A stretch of DNA of 64,000 nucleotides from Heliocybe sulcata (lineage: Eukaryota > Basidiomycota > Agaricomycetes > Gloeophyllales > Gloeophyllaceae), in assembly GCA_004369045.1 (NCBI GenBank), contig ML213503.1:2602924-2666923 (forward strand), written 5' to 3'. Positions 47,849 through 61,947 of the stretch are shown one piece after another. Each line of letters opens with the position of its first letter. Positions within the stretch are counted from its first letter, which is position 1. A program made the translations under genes and the position numbers. The notes beneath the pieces were generated by a model. The model did not search any database. It saw only the letters and a list, made by a program, of their open reading frames with translations, and was not told the DNA's origin.

Positions 47849-48537
47849 ATGCTAAAGCGTTCGCGTCCCCTTACCCCGCCGCCACAACCGGAGGAGCCAC
47901 CCAGCCTGCCACTACCGGTACCAGGTCCATCCTCCATCGAATACTACCAGCGCGACGCGAAACGACGAAGGACGGTAGCTCCGAGTTTGGACGGGCAAGC
48001 TCGCGGGTGGAGCGGGTCAAGTCTTGACGATGAGGAGGATGAAGAGGATTGGGAGCAGGACGAGAACGACGGGCGGGGTGCGGAGGCGTCACTAGAAACC
48101 TCAAAACAATACCAGGCGCCGAACAGCCTACTTCACGACTTGCATGCTGAGTACCAACATAGAATGCTCTTCTCCTCGCCACCAGCTTCGTCGTCACGGC
48201 ACGTCCCCGGCCAAATGAGCCCCTACTCACCGCAGCCACACACAACCCATGCAGCAAAACGGAACGCGCCGTATTTATTGGAGAGGCCCGTCATGACCGA
48301 GATGAACGGTCATCTGCAACGAAGTACAGCAGAACATATGGGGAAAGGAGGCCTCGACAGGGTCGAGGAGCAGCGGGTCAAGGAAAGATATGAAGAGAGT
48401 AATAGGTTCGTTCTAGTGGTTCATAGTCTTGAGTTACTTTCGACTCATGATGCCTTCTCTTCTTCAGATTGCTACGTTCGCTATTCCTCAATCGAAGACG
48501 AGAATCTCCTGAGGCAAGTGGTGGACCCTCGTCATAA
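47849..48537 (+). CDS. Hypothetical protein, Pro/acidic-rich N-terminus
   Basis: I do not recognise the family. Two exons (47849-48405 and 48468-48537, a 62-nt GT-AG intron) sum to 209 codons, giving 208 aa. The N-terminus is Pro-rich (MLKRSRPLTPPPQPEEPP) with a basic RDAKRRR patch, followed by an acidic run (DDEEDEEDWEQDENDG). The C-terminal part is more ordered (LLHDLHAEYQHRMLFSSP and, after the intron, NRLLRSLFLNRRRES). The basic and acidic patches suggest a nuclear protein, which is inference. The start is divergent from WDR70, 260 bp apart. Confidence 0.6.
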
Positions 48538-48990
48538 ACTGTAAATCACTCTTGGCATCCTTCAGGCGAGTAAAATCTCAGATATCTCTACCCCCGGTTC
48601 CTAATAGGAAACGAAGTCCACAGCATTCTTTCCATCTCCCCGCATTATTCTATTCTCAGGCACTGTTCAATTCGCACATTGCATTCGCATCTCGCATCAT
48701 CATTATTGCTCCGCATCGCGTTAACGTCATGTATGATTGCTCCGGTAATGCCTACCATACCATATCCTGTATGTATGCTCTCTTACATATGATGCATGTT
48801 CTTCTATATCATTCCGTCCATGTCCCAAGTGGTGATGAAGCTGGCGAGATGAGCGAGCTCGGGCTTGGGCTCAAACGCCCTCCAGCAAGCAATCTGCGTA
48901 AGATTAACACATATACAACTATATCACTGCTCTGAGAGGGGACAGACAATAGCTGGATAGCGATAAGCAGGCAACAGATAGTGATTGGTT
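48538..48990. other. Convergent intergenic region
   Basis: It holds the 3' flanks of the hypothetical gene and the frataxin gene, with an AT-rich middle. Open frames here have no recognisable protein content. Confidence 0.45.
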
Positions 48991-49780
48991 TTACGTTCGT
49001 AGTTTCGAAACTTCCCGAATACCAACATCAATCTCACGCCCGAAGACTCTGCTAAGCTCCTCGTTCAGCAAATCTCCCATTGCGCGCCCATCTCGACCAT
49101 ACACCCACTCGTCCCTCTGCTCACCAAGACCGTCCTTCGCGTAGTCGTAGCGTTTCGGCCCGCTGAAGGAAGACGCGATGAATACGGCGCAAGATCAGAA
49201 ACGCATCGATCGGCGTACCTGAACGGCGAGGACAGCCATATCTGTTTGTTTGGAGGCTGCTTGTTTATGACATACGTCCCATGTCGCCCGAGCTTAAGTG
49301 TCAGTACTCCGCTCTGAGGATATTCAGATAGTTATGAGCAACGTCACGATGAAGGTCACTGTAAAACGTACACTGTACTCCACTTCATATTCTGGATCTC
49401 CAGCTTCGTCTAGGAGGTTCTCCAGCTGATCGAGCAGCTGCTCCATAGTTGACTCGGCCAGTGCATCGTATTTGGATTGAGAAAGCCATTCGCTACTGCA
49501 GGTCACAACCCAGAGTAGGAGAGAGGTCCAGGCAGGTTAAAGAGGATTCTGTGCATCGATATCCCGTTGATATTCTCCCAGTCACGATTGTGGTTCCGTA
49601 CCTTGCGCTAACCTGCGGTAGAGGTGAAGCATAGTGCCTTCGTGGTACGAAAACTGGAGATCGACTTCGTAATACATATTCACGCAACGGTTGCGGGCAT
49701 ATTTGCGCTGGTGTCCGTAGTTTTCGAGGTAGACGGGGAGCTAGGTTTCTTGGGAGCACTGCAGAGGCTCGAGCAGACAT
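48991..49780 (-). CDS. YFH1: Frataxin, mitochondrial
   Basis: An iron-binding activator of the mitochondrial Fe-S cluster assembly complex (Nfs1-Isd11-Isu1). The first exon gives an Arg-rich presequence from [20 protein letters not shown] to [12 protein letters not shown]. The mature part starts [20 protein letters not shown], continues [20 protein letters not shown] and [20 protein letters not shown], then the conserved [17 protein letters not shown], and ends [15 protein letters not shown]. The acidic helix ridge and the iron-sulfur assembly surface ([10 protein letters not shown]) are intact. About four introns are present. The start is the ATG at 49780. Confidence 0.93.
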
Positions 49781-50006
49781 GACCGTTGTGTGCAAGGAGA
49801 GAGTTCCGCGCCAAGTCCCACGACGCGGGCTCTTCCGTGGTGCATTTACTCATGCTACAAACGAATGGTGCAATACATGTGGCATAGACCACGAAAGGTA
49901 TGCGATACTTCAGGCGATCGTAGCACATTATTCTGGGTGGAAACAAGAAGTGATTTCTTGCCGCGCTGAACTCCAGCATAGGACGCGATGGCACTAAGAA
50001 GATACT

Positions 50007-50634
50007 CTATGAAGAACCCTTATTTCCCTCTCGGGCTAGCCAGTCCAACCAAGAGCCCTCGTAGTTGAATATGCTATAAGAAATCATCAATGAGCCAGCA
50101 CATGCGCGGAAAGTGCTGGGCTCTTACTTCGTGTATTCGTTGCGCTTGGCCACATCTGCTGCTGAAGCGCTTCTCTTTCCACTCCGGCAGTAGAATATCA
50201 GCTCCTGGTCTTTCTGTGGCTTGTCAAACCCGTATTTTTCTCTGAACGTCTCCGGGTCAAGGCGGATGTCCCGGGCCATGACGGAGAGAGGGATATTGAC
50301 AGAAGAAGGTATGGAACCTTGCATCACTTCATCCGGTTCCCGAACATCAATCAGATAGGTTTCCTAACCTGATAGTTCAAAAGGCAGAAGGTCGAGGATA
50401 AACGCAGGTACGTACAGGGCTAGGCTGCTCGGTCTTGGGTTTAACCTGCTCGTAGGTAAGAATGCGAGCATCCCAGTCTTTCTGAAGTTCATCTCGTTGC
50501 TCCAAGATAGGTTTCACGGGGTTATTAGTCCAAGCATTCTTGTACCGAACAGACTGAGTAATTGCCAGTCGGGCGCGAGGCTGAATAGCACTATAAGCTG
50601 TTCGAGCACATCGTCCAGCAGCAAGACGGAGCAT
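50007..50634 (-). CDS. Single-domain rhodanese, probably mitochondrial
   Basis: A thiosulfate:cyanide sulfurtransferase-type protein. It starts MLRLAAGRCARTAYSAIQPR, an Arg-rich presequence. The rhodanese domain reads ILTYEQVKPK, then YLIDVREPDEVMQGSIPSSV, NIPLSV, FYCRSGKRSASAADVA, and NYEGSWLDWLAREG at the end. The active-site loop CRSGKRS has the catalytic Cys and is intact. The last intron joins NEYT to NIFNYEG; a further intron lies near 50360-50410. It resembles yeast Rdl1/Rdl2 and human TSTD1. It lies 226 bp upstream of the frataxin start on the same strand. Confidence 0.85.
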
Positions 50635-52257
50635 TGTGAGCCAGGTCAACTGGCCTTATCTTGGAATATGAGGAAGCAGAGACTGCAGCTGTACAAGCTC
50701 TACGCAACAGAAGTTGCAAGAATTCCGAATGTCTTCATGAAGGATGACGAATAGTTGCGAAACAGTGTGGCGTGCGCGACAGGGGTTTCCGGGGTGCACG
50801 TTTGCTGTCCTGGGTCCTTATCGTCTTTATTGCCATTGGCTGGCGGTGTCTCGAGGACGTGGGCGGAAATGCCGCAACGCTTGTCTACGACCACATCAGC
50901 GCCCCTCGCTGGATATGCCTCTCAGGCTGCTGGCTTCCTGCGCCCACCTTTCTTCAGCGACCTACTCGATGTCTAGCGCTGTGTATGTCGAGTGACGCGT
51001 ATTTGTCTCGTTGGGATGGCTTACCTGGGAAGCACAGAACGAGGTGGTGGGAGCGTAGTTCTCAACAAACCACCTCGATCACCTGACTCCATTCATTATC
51101 TATGATTCCTCGGCGATGGCAGCGATATTTGGACCTGGAGTATGCTCTTGTATTTCTGTGGATCTCATCTGCATCATATCATGCGAAACCGCGCTGGCAG
51201 GAGTGGTTCAATATCCGAGTCTTTTCGACACTCTTCATGGCTGCAGCTTGCTGTCGAGCGTGCTAAATCTCAAGAAAGCGAAAATTCGTGACGAGGCCAC
51301 CTTGCCATGCCGAATCGATTATGCCTTGAAATACTCCTCGAATCCTCGCCTATTAAACCGGGCTTCTGATTCTCAAACGTCCATTCTCACTTCCATTACT
51401 TCCTACGGCCGCCATTAAATCTGGTCTCCTCGTGTCCACGCTATCAGCCTCATCTCGAACTCGATGGTCTGACAATGCGAGAGCGTAGTTCTCGGTAGCA
51501 GAGTCGCCCGTCCTGAGGCACTTATAACGAAACAATCCCTCGCTAATGGCGTACATTCTTTTCAACACCACAATCCGGCATCGATGGCGACGACCGTGGT
51601 TTATGTGCTTTGGGTGGCTAACTTACTCGGTGACACTGGCTTATTCTTGGAGGTGGTTCTGCCTTACTCCTAATGACTCTGCTAAATATGCCCTCTTTCC
51701 TCACAGGCATCCCGGCAATGCATCCAAATCGCTACCCCGGGCTGCCCTTTTGGCCTTGGCAGTGACAGCAATGCGCAGCCTGGACAATGTTGGTGAGAGC
51801 GTAGTCCTCCGCAGCCGAACCTATTGGGCCATATCGCCTAACATCCGAGGACCGAAAAGGAGCTCTTCGTCTGCCTTGTACCCACCGGTGCTGAGTCCAT
51901 TGCTCCTACGGTACCAGGCTGATGGCCGCCGCCGATGTTAGCCACTTGGCACAGCGTTAATAATGTCCTCTTGCTACCTTTACATTGGTTACTGACATTG
52001 AAAATTTTGGGAGATGCCTGCGCAATAGCTGGGCAAGGCCACTGACTCCGTTACGTGACTCGTCACCGTCAGTGACGAGTAGGAAGAGCACATGAGGGCA
52101 AGGCCGATCTCGGCCTATGCCGGCACCATTGGCTAAATATGGACCAATGCCATCACAACCCTCGCTACCTCTTAATGCAGCAAGAGCGGTTCCTTATCGC
52201 TTTCAGCCCTTCCTTCACCAACTCCAGCCCGTGTTCCTGCAACTCAATACTGACACC
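50635..52257. other. Gene-poor 1.6 kb with three copies of a 13-bp motif
   Basis: No protein-coding gene is supportable. GAGCGTAGTTCTC occurs at 51051-51063 and 51481-51493, and as GAGCGTAGTCCTC at 51797-51809. Open frames are many but short and unlike known proteins. It may be an old, decayed element or a noncoding unit. The right end is the promoter of the copper transporter gene. Confidence 0.5.
52058..52080. promoter_or_regulatory. Inverted repeat upstream of the copper transporter
   Basis: ACTCGTCAC (52058-52066) and its exact inverse GTGACGAGT (52072-52080) flank a 5-bp spacer, about 180 bp upstream of the CTR start. The arms contain bZIP-like GTGACG halves. It is a candidate dimer-binding site. 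Confidence 0.6.
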
Positions 52258-52972
52258 ATGGATATGGGTTCTTCTGCGTCGAATACGTCCGTCATGGTCA
52301 TGATGACGCCCTGGCTGCACTTCGCATCGGGCGACAACCTCATCTTCAAGGCATGGCATCCGGATACGAAGGGTGCCATCGCCGGGGCATGCATTGCTCT
52401 CGTAGCATTCGCAATGCTGGAGAGATGGGTTTCTGCTTTCCGTAGGATTATGGAAACTCGTTGGCGGGCAGAGTGAGTGTCTCACTCGCATATACCGGAG
52501 CCTTTGTCCCTCCGAGAGCGGTTCTCTGAGCTGACTTTCCACCACAGGGCGCTATCTATGTTAGCTGACAACACGGAGGCTATCCCGCTCGAGAGGTCAT
52601 GCCATACAGCGAGCGATAGTAAGTCGGACGAAGGCGATGTTGTGGAGGTTCGCTATCGCTCCGATGATCCTGCGTCGCAAGAGAAATGCACGGCGAAGAA
52701 CTCTGTTAGGCAGCGCACTCGTGTCTTTGCGCCATTCATTCCGATGCACGACCTATCTCGGGGAGCGCTGTTTACTGTGCAGGCCATTATGGGTTACGCA
52801 CTGATGTTGTCTGTTATGTGAGCAGAGTGACTGTCCTCTTGGACGTGAGACTGAACATATCGTCAATTTTAGGACGTTTCAGGCTGCGTACATCATCTCC
52901 ATTATTTGTGGCTTGGGGATTGGGGAGGCATTGTTTGGGAGGATGGGTTCGCCGATGCGACACGCGCACTGA
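52258..52972 (+). CDS. CTR-family copper transporter
   Basis: A high-affinity Cu(I) importer of the Ctr type (homotrimer). Three exons (52258-52472, 52548-52817, 52873-52972) sum to 195 codons, giving 194 aa. I start at MDMGSS, because the upstream in-frame ATG adds only low-quality sequence. The N-terminus is short with few Met motifs (MDM, VMVMM) and leads to WLHFASGDNLIFKAWHP. TM1 is at about residues 40-60 (GAIAGACIALVAFAMLERWV). A polar loop of about 90 residues follows, then TM2 with the copper-selective MxxxM (MLSVM, split by the last intron) and TM3 with GxxxG (GLGIG). It ends RHAH, without a CxC motif. Next to it, 469 bp away on the same strand, is a BIM1-like copper protein. Confidence 0.92.
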
Positions 52973-53300
52973 GTTGCGAGAATGAAGAAAAAAATGGTTC
53001 ACCACAATTCCTACTCATGTCTGTAATGTACATTGCGATTGTGTATGCTCTTGGTTGGTGGAGAATGTAAGATTGCTCTGTTCTTTGCAAAATGTCGAAG
53101 TATTCTATAGGAGAGTGGCCTGTAATTAGTGGCGTGTTCGATGGGTGCCTTGTTTTGGTGTACTCGGTGGCCGCCGCTGCACTTTAGGTTTCCCTGTTGC
53201 AAAGTAAAATACTAAAGAGCGGCCGACGTCGCTTGATCGCTTGAGACTTGTGGTTTCTGATTCTGCGCCTAAGCGCCGAGCCAAAGTCATGACAACAATG

Positions 53301-53317
53301 GTGAAAAACTTTTTCAC
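53301..53317. promoter_or_regulatory. Perfect 17-bp palindrome (GTGAAAAACTTTTTCAC)
   Basis: Two exact 8-bp arms around a central C, 28 bp upstream of the TATA box of the BIM1-like gene. It is a candidate operator for a dimeric regulator. Confidence 0.75.
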
Positions 53318-53345
53318 ATGTGGCTGAAGGTCCCCTAATTGCTCG

Positions 53346-53352
53346 TATAAAT
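53346..53352 (+). promoter_or_regulatory. TATA box (TATAAAT) of the BIM1-like gene
   Basis: TATAAAT lies 90 bp before the ATG at 53442, directly after an ATTGCTC box. The distance matches other TATA-containing genes in this window. Confidence 0.65.
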
Positions 53353-53441
53353 GGCGGCTACAAGACTTCACGGCTTCTGCAGTCCAAGCCCACCTAGCAA
53401 TAGGCAATTTTGGTCTTTCACAAGGACTCCTAGATAACGAC

Positions 53442-54288
53442 ATGCGTTTCACAACCGCTCTGATTTTTTCTGGCCTTGCCGCCGTTGTGAGCGCGCACTT
53501 CCAGCTGCAATACCCCGCACCGAGAGGCCCTTTCGTCGAGGATGACGAGCCTAGCTTCTGCGGTATGCCTATGTTAGGTTCTTTAATATAGCTACATGTC
53601 GCTCACCCATAGTTGATTTAATTAGATGGTTACATCAATGCTGTGAGCAACCGGACGACGTTCCCCCTTTCAAACGGTGTCATCGAGCTCAACAGTGAGC
53701 ACCCCTCATGGACCGGTATGTCAAGCACCAATGCCGCAATTTATGATCTTTGTTTTACTGATGCTTAAATCCCCTCCAGTCGGCGTCATTATCTCCACGG
53801 CACAGAACCCTACCAGCCAGGACAACTTCACCAGCCCCAGCAATTCCAGTGCATTCCAGATGGTCATGGAGTACAACAGGCAGAGCGGAGAGGGTCTCTT
53901 CTGCCTTCCGATCGACATACAAGCCGCCGGAATTAGCGGCGTGCAGGATGGCAGCCACGTTACTATCGAAATCATCTTCGACGGCGGCGACGGCATGCTG
54001 TACCAGGTCTGTTACTTTGATTCGCGTTTTCTACTGATCACTAAACCCTATTTTCTCTAGTGCGCGGACTTGACCCTCTCGAGTAGCACGACCGTCCCTT
54101 CGAACGCTACGTCGAGTTGTACGAACGCGACGAACGTCCCGATAGGTACCTCCACGAGTGCAACCTCAACCGCTTCTTCCACTGCACCGGCTAGCTCAGG
54201 CTCGAGCAGCGCTGCGTCGTCCATCTCGATGCCCGTGGGACTGTCAGGATTGCTGGGTTTGTTGGGTGTGGCATTGGCAGCTCTATGA
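53442..54288 (+). CDS. BIM1: BIM1/X325 LPMO-like copper-acquisition protein, GPI-anchored
   Basis: In Cryptococcus, Bim1 is a GPI-anchored LPMO-like protein that helps the Ctr1 transporter take up copper. Four exons (53442-53562, 53626-53715, 53780-54006, 54061-54288) sum to 222 codons, giving 221 aa. The signal peptide is residues 1-18 and cleavage would expose His19 ([14 protein letters not shown]), the N-terminal copper-brace His. The second His is probably in SEHPSW. Family motifs [25 protein letters not shown] and GEGLFCLPI are present, with Cys in SFCDG, LFCLP and QCADL. A Ser/Thr-rich stalk follows (about residues 160-200), then a hydrophobic GPI-type tail ([16 protein letters not shown]). 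The CTR copper transporter is the next gene upstream. Confidence 0.9.
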
Positions 54289-54920
54289 GAAGGATATGAT
54301 ATTACGGCAGAGATGACCGCTATTTTTATACGGATGTATCTACACGTCGAGTCAAATAGACAGTCGTTGTTGCCCAGTTAGACGCCGCAGCGAGCCATAC
54401 TCCGCAGCCGGTCATATCGTCGAGACCGGGTCTAGGCCAGATCGGCCGACCGGAGGCCTCTGTCGGCTTAGTCAGCAACCGCGGCGGATGTGAACCGGCG
54501 GATCGGTGGGCAGCCGGGAGACTGACGGCGGTGGACAGGGTACTTGATTTCTCTGCTAGCGACTTTTAGCGTATTTTGTCGGTTGCGATTTGTTGGCTTC
54601 GCCTTGTCTTATACCACATCGTTCTCTCCTTTCGCTTCTCGCAAAGTACCTTTTGACAAGAGTTTTCGGCCAAGTGTCCTTGTTCTGTTCTGTCGGTCTG
54701 TCTCAGTTGGCGCTAGCCAGCTTTTCTGGCTTGCACCTATACCTCCTGCTTCATCAATACCCTCGCATCTCCCATACCCTCATTCCACTGCAATATTGCC
54801 CTGCACAGTACACCATCTGTTCTCCTAAAATCGCCTCTGGAACGGTATCTCTTGTATTAACTCCAACCGGGCGCTTCAGATAGGACAGGACAGCCAGCAG
54901 ATATCGAAGCCGAACTCACC
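54289..54920. other. Intergenic, promoter and long leader of the KH gene
   Basis: The first 250 bp are GC-rich with repeated CCGG-type words. From about 54600 the plus strand is T- and C-rich up to the KH gene start, as expected for a long pyrimidine-rich leader. No gene is supported. Confidence 0.45.
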
Positions 54921-57900
54921 ATGGACGTTTACACAACTTCCTTTCTCTACCCTCGCCGCCCGCGAAACACTCATTCTTCGGGGAACAATTCTTTCGACTT
55001 CCCTTCTTCCAATTCTTCTACCGATGGATACTCGGGTGGCTTGCAAAACGGTGGAGGCATCCCCTTTCCTCCCCAGGACCCTGCTCAGGTCGCAGCTTCT
55101 CAGTCGGAGTTCGAGGCACTGCAGAAGCTTCAGATGATAGTCACCACAATGCATGGGTGTCATCTCTCATATGACATAGCTAACAACGGGATGGACTGGA
55201 ACTTTTTGCTCTCGGGACCGTACCAGCAAGTCATGATGGCTCGCGGTCTCGTCTTGAAGGAATGTCCCTCGCAGGTGTGTACATTGGCGGATCCCAACAT
55301 ATGTGTTATATTGACGTCGAGTCCCATGTATCAAATCCTCTAGTTTCGCGCGAAGATAAAGGTGACGCGTTCGGAGATACTCGATGCGCCCGCCACCAAA
55401 GCTCCGGCTCTGAAGCCAGAGGTCAGGCAGCGGCTGGACGACATTGCATCGCAGACGCATGGGCACATTGCTGTCGTCAATAGCCCTTTCTCCTTGTCCA
55501 CGCGCACGCCTCCGGATGGCATTAGCAATAGCTCTGGCTGGTCCGGGTTGGAAACTGAACGTGTCTGCGAGCTTGTCATCACGGGCATAGGTGACTCCGT
55601 TGATCTGACGCGAGTGAGACTACTTGTCATGCTTGACGAGCTGGTACGTCATCGGTGTTCCCGTCTGAGCTTTGCGGCTGACCTGGTTTCGTAGAGTGGC
55701 CTGCATTCTGAAGCCGTTGAGATCGATCACAAACTGCATGCTATCATCGCTGGTCGCAAGCGTAGTGTCTTGCAGACCATCCAAGAAGAAACGGCGACTA
55801 ACATATATTTGCCTAATCCGCTCCAAGGACTTGTGGGCCCTGATCAAGGGTATGGAGCTGCTTCTACTGCTCCTGCAGGTTCGCCTGCTAGGTATAATAG
55901 TCCTAATGTCATATGGATCACTGGGGAGTTCTTTGGCGTGCAGAGAGCCAGGGATATGCTGCATCAGGTATCTATGAATAAAGTGAGCGGTCGTGGATGG
56001 CTTCGCAATGAAAGGAGCCCGCTGATGTTTATTGTGCAGAGCAAGGCGATCTTATCTCGTGACAGCGCCATCTTGCCGCGGAAGCTGGATTGGATGTTGG
56101 TTGAGCGTGCGGACGATCTGCGAAGTATCATGCAGGATAATGGCACCTTCATTCAGTTTCCGCCGATCGGTAGCTCCACGAGCGTGATCAGCGTCTATGG
56201 TGACAACCGCGTCAGCATCCAGAGAACCATCCGTTCTGTCATGCAACTGGTAAGTACAAACATTACATCCCGGCGGTCCCTTCGAACGATCTTCGTTTCG
56301 CAGGCCTGCCAGCATTATGTGGCGTCGTTCTGGCTGCTTCCGCTACAGTTCAACGTCCTGCTTCCACCTCCGGCACTCAACACGACCCAGATAGCCGCGT
56401 TGCTTAAGCAGATCTCCTGCGCTACTGGTGCTGAGGCAGTGTTCAAGAGCATGTGCTTCGAAATGCACGGTCTTGAGCACGAAATCCGGGCGGCCGTGAA
56501 TATGATAATGGAGCTGGACATAGTCAAGGTATCCATTCCCTTTGTAATTGTACACTGGCGCAACCAACTAAAACGCTTCATAGGCTTTCCATCATGAAAT
56601 CCGCTTTCAGATTGAACTCGCCAATGAACACCGGGAATTTATAAGTGGGAAGAAGAATGGAAAGATTAACAAGATAATGCAGACGACCAACGTCAAAATC
56701 AAGTTCGAGACGTTCAACGACCACAACTTCTTGATTGACGTCGCCGGGAATGACGGATCTGTTCTCCAGGGCTTGACTCTTCTCCAAGAGGAGTTACCCG
56801 CGGAGATCTCCTTCCATGTGCCAGAGTCGTACCACAAGCGCATCATCGGTGTTGGTGGCCGCAGCATCCAGAGGATCATGAAGAAGTTTGGCGTCTATGT
56901 CAAATTCTCCAATGCTGAAGAGTTTGCTGCATTGGGAGGCTACAATGATAATGAGGATAACGTCGTGGCGAGGACCCCTGCCAAGAATGCTATTAACCTC
57001 GAGAATCTCAAGCAAGCTGTTATGGAATTGGTTAATCCAAAAGTCAGAATCTCTCGATGTGTCGCTCTGTCAGCATACTCACCGTTGGCTCCAGGATAAG
57101 GACTATATGAATGAGACTGTATCTATTCCTCGACGCTATCATCGTACCCTCCTCGGGGAGAAAGCTATCTTCATCCACGATATCGAGACGAAGACTAACT
57201 CGCAAGTCCGGTTCCCTGACAAGGAGATCGCGTCTGATCTGGTGACCATCTTTGGACCTGAAAGCCAGGTACAAATCGCCGCCGCAATGCTGCTTGTATG
57301 AGTCTTATCCTTTCCGTGCTCTGTAATTATCTGAACCTTTTGTTAGGATCACGTTCCTTTTGAAGCTGATATGGCTGTCCCCATTCACCCTGACTTACCC
57401 ATGATATGTGCCTCTCAAGACTTCGGTACGTTCGCGGAGCGTGTCAAGCGTGAATTCCAGGTTGTCGTGGTTCCCAACATCAAGACGCCCGGAGGGACTC
57501 CAGTTGAACTGTCGGAATGCTCATTCAAGTTCCGTTGCCAGCGGAGCAATGCCGATTTCTTGGTGACGGCGAGGGAGATGCTTGAGCAATTCTTGCTGAG
57601 CCACAATGTTCATGTGTATCCATCGCCGACGTCGCATACACACAAGAGAGGTGACTCGTTCGCGGAAGCCTTCCCTCACTTCGACAGCAAGCTCTTGTCA
57701 ACAGCCAGGGTTAAGACTCGGCACGGTGAGTGGCTCATCCTAGGGACGTCTCAAGTAGATCTTAATGCTCTTGACAGACTCCACAGATCTGTCTCGTCCT
57801 TCTGAGAGTCTGGTGGAGAGACGCCTGAGGCTTGCCAACTCCTCGCCGGATGTGAAGGCTCTGTTCAACAATCATAGCAACCAACCTGCATATATCTATA

Positions 57901-58834: not shown

Positions 58835-60462
58835 TTAATTGGTAATCCAGGGTACCTCGTATAATACAAAGTCGAAGAACTCTTGTTCCATCAAGGACTG
58901 GTATTCGCCCACCACCTCTTCGTTCGCACCGCTCTTCGTGTTCGCAGTGCGTTGGTTCGAACGAGGTGCAAGATAGGAGAATTGACTGCTGAGTATCGTC
59001 AATATCTTCTTGACCTGCTTGGGATCGGGCTGGTAGTGATGATAGTCAGGTCGCTGTAATCCATGCTGCTGTGTCCAACGACTCACCTTGATTATGAGAC
59101 CGGTATAGTTGGCGGGCAGGCCGTATCGCAGGACGCTTTCTACGAAGAGTCGTAGTACCTTCAGGTGGACTAGCAGCTGGAAGGATTCTGAAAAGTTCGT
59201 GCGGGACAGGCGTAGTAACTCAGTCTAGCACGGTTCTCACACAATCAATCGCAGTCGCAAGAAGTGAGTTATTATCGAGCTTACCCACAACTCCTTTTCC
59301 GTCGTATCAGCAGTGTCAAGCTCCTCCCGTTGCTTGGCCATAGCGTCTTCCGAGTACTGGAAATCGCGGACGATGAATCTAACGGAAGGAAATTAATGTA
59401 AGCGGTGTGTGGCGAGATGGAGATCCACGCACTTGTTCTCTCTGCACTTTTGCACGAACTCGTCGTGCACCTTGCGGAAGATGACGACGCCGAAAAGGGA
59501 GTATTCAGAGTCAGAAGAGATTGGTCTGCGTATTCGCACATCAATAAATCTGATGCAGTGCACAGATGATTGACGTACTGGGATGATCTGGGGACGACCA
59601 TGGATGTTAACCTCTCGTACTTCGAGTTCCAGTCCTTGACCAAGGTTCTGGTGCAAATTTAACATATGCCATGGCAAGTAAGGCAACTACTGACTGACTT
59701 GGGGACGGCAACCAGAAGGGTCTCCATGTATTCAGAATCCAGGAGGAAGTTGTCTTTCGTTACGACGTCCGTCAGTGACCGAACAGAGAGATTTCCTCTT
59801 GAAACGTAAGTAAATAGGAGAGTCATTGGAAGCATGCTTCCGGGTATACATACGTCTTCTTCCGCTGCATCTGCGTCAATGATCCTTTCGCCAGGTTATA
59901 GTTGTTTAGCTTGGTCTTCATGACGTTGTCGATAGATGTCATCTCCTGCAGGACACAAGCGGTCACTCATTCTGTAGATTATCTGGGGCAAGATAATAGG
60001 AAGCACCTTGTTCAAGACCTCCGCCATTTCAGGCAAACCTCTCTGTACACCATACCGGCCTTCGTTCCACGTCCAGTCGTGAAGCAGATAGTCGTCTACG
60101 GTCGCTTCGTTCACGAGAATATGTTGCAATAGTTTGGATGAATCGTTGTTCAGGAGGTTACGGAGGGTGTCCACGATCTTGGCTACTGTCTGCGTGAAGA
60201 ATGCCTCCTGCTTCGGAAGGTCTTCGGAGAGAGACACCAATGAGTCGAGAGTGCCTGTCTTAATACCATACATTCAGCCTCAGTCGGTAAAGACTCGACA
60301 GGTCTATCGTACCTTGAACGAGGGGATAGTCAAGGGTGCGATGTTGCTCGGGGGTAATGCCTTGGACTGTCTGACCAACTTGGTGGTGATCTCCTGCAAG
60401 AGACCCTCCGACTCGCCATCCTGCGGCACTGAAATAAACCAAGTACTCTGATCAGAAGGCAT
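58835..60462 (-). CDS. VMA5: V-type ATPase subunit C
   Basis: Subunit C of the V1 sector clamps the stator stalks and controls reversible V1-Vo disassembly. The start is [20 protein letters not shown]. Further segments: [136 protein letters not shown], and a C-terminal [20 protein letters not shown] with [10 protein letters not shown]. These are the hallmark segments of Vma5 in order. About ten introns are present. The start is divergent from TUM1, 214 bp apart. Confidence 0.94.
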
Positions 60463-60676
60463 GGTAGCAAGCAGTAGGCACTGTCGCAGTCGAGGTTGGC
60501 CAAATGAAGAGCGGTCTTCCCCTGTCCGAATGAGCGAATGGCGTCCAAGTATGGTAATTTCCAGGATTCGGACTAATCTCCAAGCTCAGAGACTTTCCTG
60601 CAGATATATTCTTCTTTTAGACGACGCGGGGTAACCTCGATTTTCGAACGCGTTCCTTCACTCCGTAACGCCATCC

Positions 60677-61947
60677 ATGACCATCCTGTTGCGATCGTTG
60701 AGAGGAACTTTATACAGACGGTCGTTATCTGCGATATCGTCGCGAGCCATGTCCTCTACTCCTCTGCTAGTGAAGCCGTCAGAGCTCCTTGAACTCACAA
60801 AGACTGGGGTGACCATCCTCGATGCCAGTTGGCATATGCCGAACTCTCCTCGCAAGGGGAAGGAAGAGTTCCTTCTGAACCGTATTCCGAATGCGCAATT
60901 CTTGGATCTCGACGAGGTGGCTACTCCCAATGAACTCGGATTGAAGCATATGATGCCGTCAGCTCGCCAATTCGCCGATGCATGCGGTAGGCGTTCCTCT
61001 AGACTCGGTGCTCTGAAGTCTAACCCTAAGTCAGAATACTGGGGCATCCAGCCCTCGACCCATGTTGTAATGTACACCCTTCTGATCATCCTAGCTGTAT
61101 ACCAGAAATCAAATACCTCTGTTCAGCTATGACTCGCATGGTGTATTTTCGTCTCCACGGGCATTATTCATGTTCAAAGCCTTCGGCCATGAGAAATCAA
61201 GCGTCCTAGACGGTGGTTTGCCTCGATGGGAAGCAGAGGGGTACCCCGTGGAGACCGGTCCTCCCTTGACCACAGTGAAGAAGACCGACTATCCGGAGCC
61301 TAGTCTCGATGAGAATGCCATCAGGAGTGACTATCTACGCCTCATTGCACTATCTTGGCCTATACGCTGAACCTTTGGGCTTGCAGGCTACAAGCAGATT
61401 GCGCACAATGCCAGTCTGAATCCCACAGACCCCATTTCCGAGCTCGTCCTCGACGCACGGCCTCGAGGCAGGTACGTCCCTGAGCTGCAGCATGCGGTCA
61501 GAGTAACCACGTACACTGACGATACATAGATGGATAGGGTCTGACCCAGAGCCCCGACCAGGTCTCCCATCTGGTCATATTCCCTACTCACGCTCTCTGC
61601 CCTTTAGCACGTTCCTCCAGACGAATAAAGTCCCAGGTTCCGATGCTACCTACACTACGTTCTTGCCATCAGCGGCTCTCCATGAAAAGCTGGTTAGCGC
61701 TGTTGGTCCCGACAATGCGGAGAAAATATTGAAAGGCGAGCGGTCGGTCGTCACCAGTTGCGGAAGTGGTATGACTGCCGGTGTTCTGTGGCTTGGTCTC
61801 AGGTTACTCGGTACATCCAAGATTGGCCTGTATGATGAGGTGAGGTTCACCCGCTAGTGCGCTCTTGCTGCTATTTCTGACCGATCGTAGTCTTGGACTG
61901 GTTATGCCGCTCGGCAATCGAGCATCATAGATACAGGTGAAAAGTGA
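60677..61947 (+). CDS. TUM1: Two-domain mitochondrial sulfurtransferase
   Basis: A 3-mercaptopyruvate/thiosulfate sulfurtransferase of the Tum1/MST family, supplying sulfur for tRNA thiolation and persulfides. It begins MTILLRSLRGTLYRRSLSAI, a mitochondrial-type presequence. Domain 1: TILDASWHMPNSPRKGKEEF, then YDSHGVFSSPRALFMFKAFG and LDGGLPRWEAEGYPVE. Domain 2: LVLDARPRGRWIGSDPEPRP, GHIPYSRSLPF, and the catalytic loop SCGSGMTAGVLWL with Cys in the CGSG(V/M)TA form typical of MST. It ends SWTGYAARQSSIID with the stop at 61947. About five introns. One splice (at about 61066, THVV to YDSHG) does not fit a standard GT donor in frame. Confidence 0.88.

Follow-up and report, generated by a model that had tools for sequence, protein, structure and literature searches.

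The Cryptococcus neoformans protein Cbi1/Bim1, which has a His brace and a GPI anchor, is induced by Cuf1 when copper is limiting and serves copper uptake through Ctr1 (PMC9258870; papers are cited here and below from excerpts of their text). How copper is transferred from Cbi1/Bim1 to the importer is, according to the excerpts of that paper, not yet defined in detail. Bim1 does not cleave cellulose, and it releases its copper when peroxide is present (PMC7529816). In Fusarium oxysporum, the CTR/reductase pairs ctr3/fre9 and ctr1b/fre12 stand under Mac1 control (PMC11563359), while in Pseudogymnoascus destructans the BIM1-like gene BLP2 (VC83_03095) and the metalloreductase gene VC83_03096 are both upregulated under copper withholding (PMC12113139).

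The window considered here, the whole 64,000-nucleotide stretch of Heliocybe sulcata DNA that was analysed, holds members of the same two families as the C. neoformans system, a capture protein and an importer (PMC9258870, PMC13343922). While the excerpts of those papers do not present the Cbi1/Bim1 and Ctr1 genes as neighbours, the window genes adjoin one another, without the C. neoformans CuRE consensus. The F. oxysporum pairs resemble the window pair in that a CTR gene is joined to a second copper-uptake gene (PMC11563359), but there the CTR gene and its reductase partner diverge around a common promoter, whereas here the partner is an X325 gene and the arrangement is head-to-tail. The P. 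destructans BLP2 gene is also like the window X325 gene in being a BIM1-like gene beside a copper-uptake gene (an adjacency suggested by consecutive locus numbers), although its partner is a reductase and not a CTR. None of the matches listed in our full-text literature searches, and none of the excerpts, mentions CTR and X325 as paired genes; two founding papers (Nat Chem Biol 2020) lay outside the scope of these searches. Clustered copper-uptake genes, CTR/reductase pairs included, are thus already known, and the CTR/X325 pair is apparently new within the excerpted literature searched. Its parts, by spliced models, are as follows.

52258-52972, forward strand: CTR gene, 3 exons with GT-AG introns, 194 aa
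52258-52472, forward strand: CTR exon 1, N-terminus with MDM and MVMM, then TM1 (spliced model, Pfam Ctr)
52548-52817, forward strand: CTR exon 2, loop and TM2, its end falling in the Met162 codon of MLSVM
52873-52972, forward strand: CTR exon 3 and stop, TM3 with GLGIG, C-terminal HAH
52973-53441, forward strand: intergenic region of 469 bp, presumed X325 promoter
53442-54288, forward strand: X325/BIM1 gene, 4 exons with GT-AG introns, 221 aa
53442-53562, forward strand: X325 exon 1, presumed signal peptide of 18 aa, then mature His1
53626-53715, forward strand: X325 exon 2, copper-ligand His48 (mature numbering) within SEHPSW
53780-54006, forward strand: X325 exon 3, Asp ligand D123 (mature numbering) in the GGDG loop
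54061-54288, forward strand: X325 exon 4 and stop, Ser/Thr-rich linker and a hydrophobic GPI-type tail, as judged by eye

The CTR assignment made by the sequence-only reading, with its MxxxM and GxxxG motifs, was borne out. The protein matches Pfam Ctr (PF04145) over residues 19-183 with 119.9 bits (cut-off 25.3; E 1.8e-34), and there is a weak match to the solved CTR1 chimera (PDB 6m97/6m98, E 0.00067). MxxxM in TM2 and GxxxG in TM3 have a role in the CTR family, whose members carry Met residues in the extracellular N-terminus. Here the first motif is MLSVM at residues 158-162, in a hydrophobic stretch assigned to TM2, and the second is GLGIG at 175-179, in a hydrophobic stretch assigned to TM3. 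The N-terminus had been called short and Met-poor; it is indeed short, yet Met occurs at positions 1, 3, 13, 15, and 16. With five Met in the first 16 residues, the argument that a Met-poor importer would depend on its LPMO-like partner fails.

The neighbouring protein belongs to the X325 family. It matches the Pfam BIM1-like family (PF20238) with 104.7 bits (cut-off 27; E 7.3e-30), and a phmmer search of the PDB returns 6ibh, 6ibi, and 6ibj (E 9.8e-35), the structures of LaX325 from Laetisaria arvalis, 6IBJ being named as such in PMC7924993. The match begins at precursor His19, in agreement with the earlier proposal that this residue, followed by X325 motifs, forms the mature N-terminus; the cleavage site was set by eye and by where the LaX325 chain starts. 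The His brace, composed of the mature N-terminal His (precursor His19, H1) and a second His (H48), is present. In the alignment with LaX325 the copper ligands pair as H1/H1, H48/H49, and D123/D122, the last within the GGDG loop, consistent with the description of the X325 Asp ligand on a Gly-rich loop (PMC7529816). The four cysteines conserved in the family (PMC11766592) are also kept, at mature C22, C94, C129, and C148 against C22, C93, C128, and C145, such that family, ligands, and cysteines are all the same in the two proteins. Ser and Thr make up 55% of residues 155-203, the C-terminus is hydrophobic, and from this tail, judged by eye, GPI anchoring is plausible. Taken at the level of predicted proteins, the window pair has the features expected for the division of labour between Cbi1/Bim1 and Ctr1.

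The two genes, both intact, lie head-to-tail on the same strand, and the spliced models agree with the coordinates and the 469-bp spacing reported earlier. To place this arrangement in its genomic context, the genome was searched in six frames (31.6 Mb, 51 contigs, the window lying on contig C1). CTR genes occur at three loci, in the window on C1, on C5 (ATG at 767032), and on C11 (ATG at 969074), the same three being returned by one search with 5 matches and another with 7. X325 was found in the window only (2 matches with the family profile up to E 1; 3 with the window protein up to E 10), a count of one that is a lower bound, as exon-wise six-frame searches may overlook intron-split or diverged paralogues. 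Copper-fist (PF00649) loci number two, on C6 and C19. Given three CTR loci and one X325 gene, the chance of the X325 gene immediately neighbouring a CTR is about 5e-4, a figure judged after the fact and based on about 11,300 genes, a guess that allows 2.8 kb for each. The physical linkage of CTR and X325 is thus real and unlikely by chance, in one genome. No relatives of X325 were confirmed in viral contigs and plasmids, non-fungal collections that are silent on conservation. The closest recognised genes around the pair are these.

50127-50363, reverse strand: domain of a rhodanese-domain gene, upstream of CTR (Pfam E 8.7e-13)
55695-56594: domains of a KH-domain protein of Mug60/KHD4 type, downstream of X325
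58838-59224 and 59899-60273: frames of V-ATPase subunit C

Some 10 kb from the rhodanese-domain gene, the frame at 60635-61129 (forward strand) looks sulfurtransferase-like by eye, this exon giving no Pfam match.

A second copper-uptake pair is found on C11. The CTR encoded there is the one closest to the window CTR, with 39% identity over window residues 1-77 and 63% over residues 162-188, and the sequence GLGIGEALFGR is common to both. The C5 CTR shows 33% identity over residues 28-69 (E 0.03), differs in its third helix, and has a short N-terminus with His, Met, and Cys; it may resemble vacuolar Ctr6/Ctr2. Facing the C11 CTR in convergent orientation is a gene containing Ferric_reduct, FAD_binding_8, and NAD_binding_6 domains, which by this domain content encodes a predicted protein of ferric/cupric-reductase type. 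In the genome, 11 loci have Ferric_reduct (merged from 12 matches) and seven of these also have NAD_binding_6 (8 matches), and the chance of a CTR adjoining a reductase is about 0.4-0.6%. The partner is a reductase as in F. oxysporum, but the C11 genes converge and are preceded by two copies of one upstream sequence. This genome therefore holds at least two pairs of copper-uptake genes, and with one CTR/X325 and one CTR/reductase pair, copper uptake seems packed into two pairs.

The relationship of the upstream sequences was examined by comparing five regions, those of the C1 CTR, X325, C11 CTR, C11 reductase, and C5 CTR (1000 bp each, 469 bp for X325). A promoter common to the CTR and X325 genes of the window was rejected, since their upstream regions are unlike, the local alignment score being reached by 27 of 100 shuffles that preserve base composition only. 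Among the ten promoter pairs, the C11 CTR and C11 reductase alone stood out, with a local score of 120 where the shuffles reach at most 27 (0/100); the next pair, C1 CTR and C11 CTR (4/100), is not notable among ten. The two diverged C11 copies, at C11:967778-969011 and 972233-973597, are inverted relative to each other and align in three collinear blocks (68.5% over 311 columns, 77.5% over 71, and 85.4% over 41) that extend over about 1.2 kb in one copy and about 1.4 kb in the second. A genome search up to E 10 with a 294-base piece returned two C11 places and no third copy, so a dispersed repeat seems unlikely. In the simplest reading, an inverted duplication would have placed one upstream region before both the C11 CTR and the reductase.

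Known copper elements were looked for in the same five promoters. The TTTGCTCA element (PMC11563359), TTTGCTC, TTTGCKC, and the C. neoformans CuRE consensus WAAKGSCKCR (PMC7961099) have 0 sites in each, where the absence of TTTGCTCA and WAAKGSCKCR weighs against these consensuses and not against other copper-fist sites. Thus, of the earlier proposal that scavenger and importer are linked and may be co-regulated, linkage stands, while co-regulation finds no backing in the dissimilar upstream regions or in the elements searched for. The shorter core TTGCTC occurs once before the C1 CTR, twice each before X325, the C11 CTR, and the C11 reductase, and 0 times before the C5 CTR (background 0.74 per kb), giving 7 sites in four copper-uptake promoters, all on the sense strand. 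This excess is weak, and one of the C11 sites duplicates another through the C11 duplication. The elements located upstream of the window genes are listed here.

51049-51809, forward strand: GRGAGCGTAGTYCTC, a near-palindrome present three times (starts 51049, 51479, and 51795; 760 bp), upstream of CTR, candidate element
53073-53078 and 53339-53344: TTGCTC sites in the X325 promoter
53346-53353: TATA-like TATAAATG, 96 bp before the X325 ATG and just after the TTGCTC at 53339, found by eye

The possession of a TATA-like sequence of its own argues for X325 having its own promoter. AGATTGCTCT is common to the X325, C11 CTR, and C11 reductase promoters, with 71 sites genome-wide against 20 for the backwards pattern, and serves only as a lead. 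GAGCGTAGTYCTC has 7 exact sites genome-wide (backwards control 6), three clustered upstream of the window CTR and four scattered; no copper gene was obvious near these four among longer frames in 3-kb loci inspected by eye, and a Ferric_reduct match is found at a distance of 4.7 kb from one of them, C22:44535. The looser GNGAGCGTAGTYC, a pattern written after the C11 site had been seen, has 11 sites, of which three are upstream of the window CTR, one is upstream of the C11 CTR, and seven are elsewhere, with no overall enrichment genome-wide (backwards control 18). Within 20 kb of sequence surrounding the C11 pair, the closest match to the GRGAGCGTAGTYCTC motif has 2 mismatches and is at 968559, inside the promoter of the C11 CTR; the runner-up has 3 mismatches and is at 972745, the corresponding position in the alignment before the C11 reductase. 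Another five 3-mismatch sites were found outside this region, in the window and the C5 stretch. The GRGAGCGTAGTYCTC-type motif is, on these matches, a lead to a candidate binding site. A perfect 9-bp inverted repeat, ACTCGTCAC-CGTCA-GTGACGAGT, was also seen by eye at 52058-52080, some 180 bp ahead of the start codon of the CTR gene, and is a possible factor-binding site. No structured RNA was matched in Rfam up to E 1 within 48000-56000, and the stretch 50700-52257, searched as a possible dispersed repeat, matched nothing but itself, in a search that skips very common words.

What the adjacency means can be weighed against this evidence. We consider it probable that the two genes form a functional copper-acquisition pair, with X325 capturing the copper that the importer takes in and with an adjacency that is no accident. 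The idea of such a pairing gains from the C11 locus, where the most similar other CTR pairs with a metalloreductase and the upstream regions are related, and from the existence of Mac1-controlled ctr/fre pairs in Fusarium oxysporum. The sequence itself shows the two genes, their intact ligands and pore motifs, their adjacency, and one X325 gene detected. Beyond this, we infer a series of steps in which the X325/BIM1 protein would be anchored outside the plasma membrane, would bind Cu(II) via its His brace plus Asp, and would pass the copper, after reduction, to the CTR encoded next door; low copper would induce the genes through one of the two copper-fist factors (C6 and C19 loci), and adjacency would be kept for shared expression or inheritance. 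A further and tentative extension, which we hold as possible though far from established, is that there are two uptake modules with different front ends, one joining a CTR to a His-brace capture protein (window) and the other a similar CTR to a metalloreductase (C11), the C11 pair being co-regulated through the inverted upstream duplication.

The same facts could be read as ordinary copper genes lying side by side by accident in this lineage, their adjacency having neither functional nor regulatory meaning. The evidence comes from one genome, and the promoters of the two window genes neither resemble each other nor contain the known copper elements tested. The C. neoformans CTR1 gene is CNAG_07701. 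Set beside that of CBI1 (CNAG_02775, PMC9258870), this locus number does not suggest linkage in that species. Against accident stand the chance estimate for X325 beside a CTR and the second copper-uptake pair in the same genome, and we judge it rather unlikely. An X325 protein with a cell-wall or interface role (wall integrity, mycorrhizal contact, or secretion in wood decay) that does not feed this CTR, where copper regulation in common would explain the association, draws on the effect of C. neoformans Cbi1 on the cell wall (PMC9258870) and on X325 proteins being counted with the major proteins that Crucibulum laeve secretes (PMC11766592). This explanation is improbable in our view, as the copper site is fully kept by alignment, the gene adjoins an importer, and Cbi1 acts in uptake through Ctr1 (PMC9258870). 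Least probable by far is a true polysaccharide-oxidising LPMO that lies beside a CTR only for its copper need. The His brace is common to both and the family is LPMO-like, but the X325-type Asp ligand (GGDG) is kept, tested X325 members show no polysaccharide cleavage in the excerpts of PMC7924993 and PMC7529816, and the tail has a GPI-type look. In LPMOs, the position at the copper that Asp occupies in X325 stays free for an exogenous ligand (PMC7529816); this free position of the AA families is not found in the window protein, which by alignment has Asp there.

The question for X325/BIM1 proteins is how copper passes to importers, and to which one. The adjacency of capture protein and importer genes bears on the second part of this question: with one detectable X325 gene beside one of two similar CTR genes, the likely partner can be named, and partner specificity thereby becomes addressable by two single deletions. 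The C11 pair offers a concrete route, an inverted upstream duplication, by which neighbouring eukaryotic genes could gain one control. If the two-module reading is true, each importer would have its own loading route, and CTR/X325 would be a heritable two-gene unit. The arrangement suggests that a copper importer and its capture protein may be kept as one copper-uptake kit.
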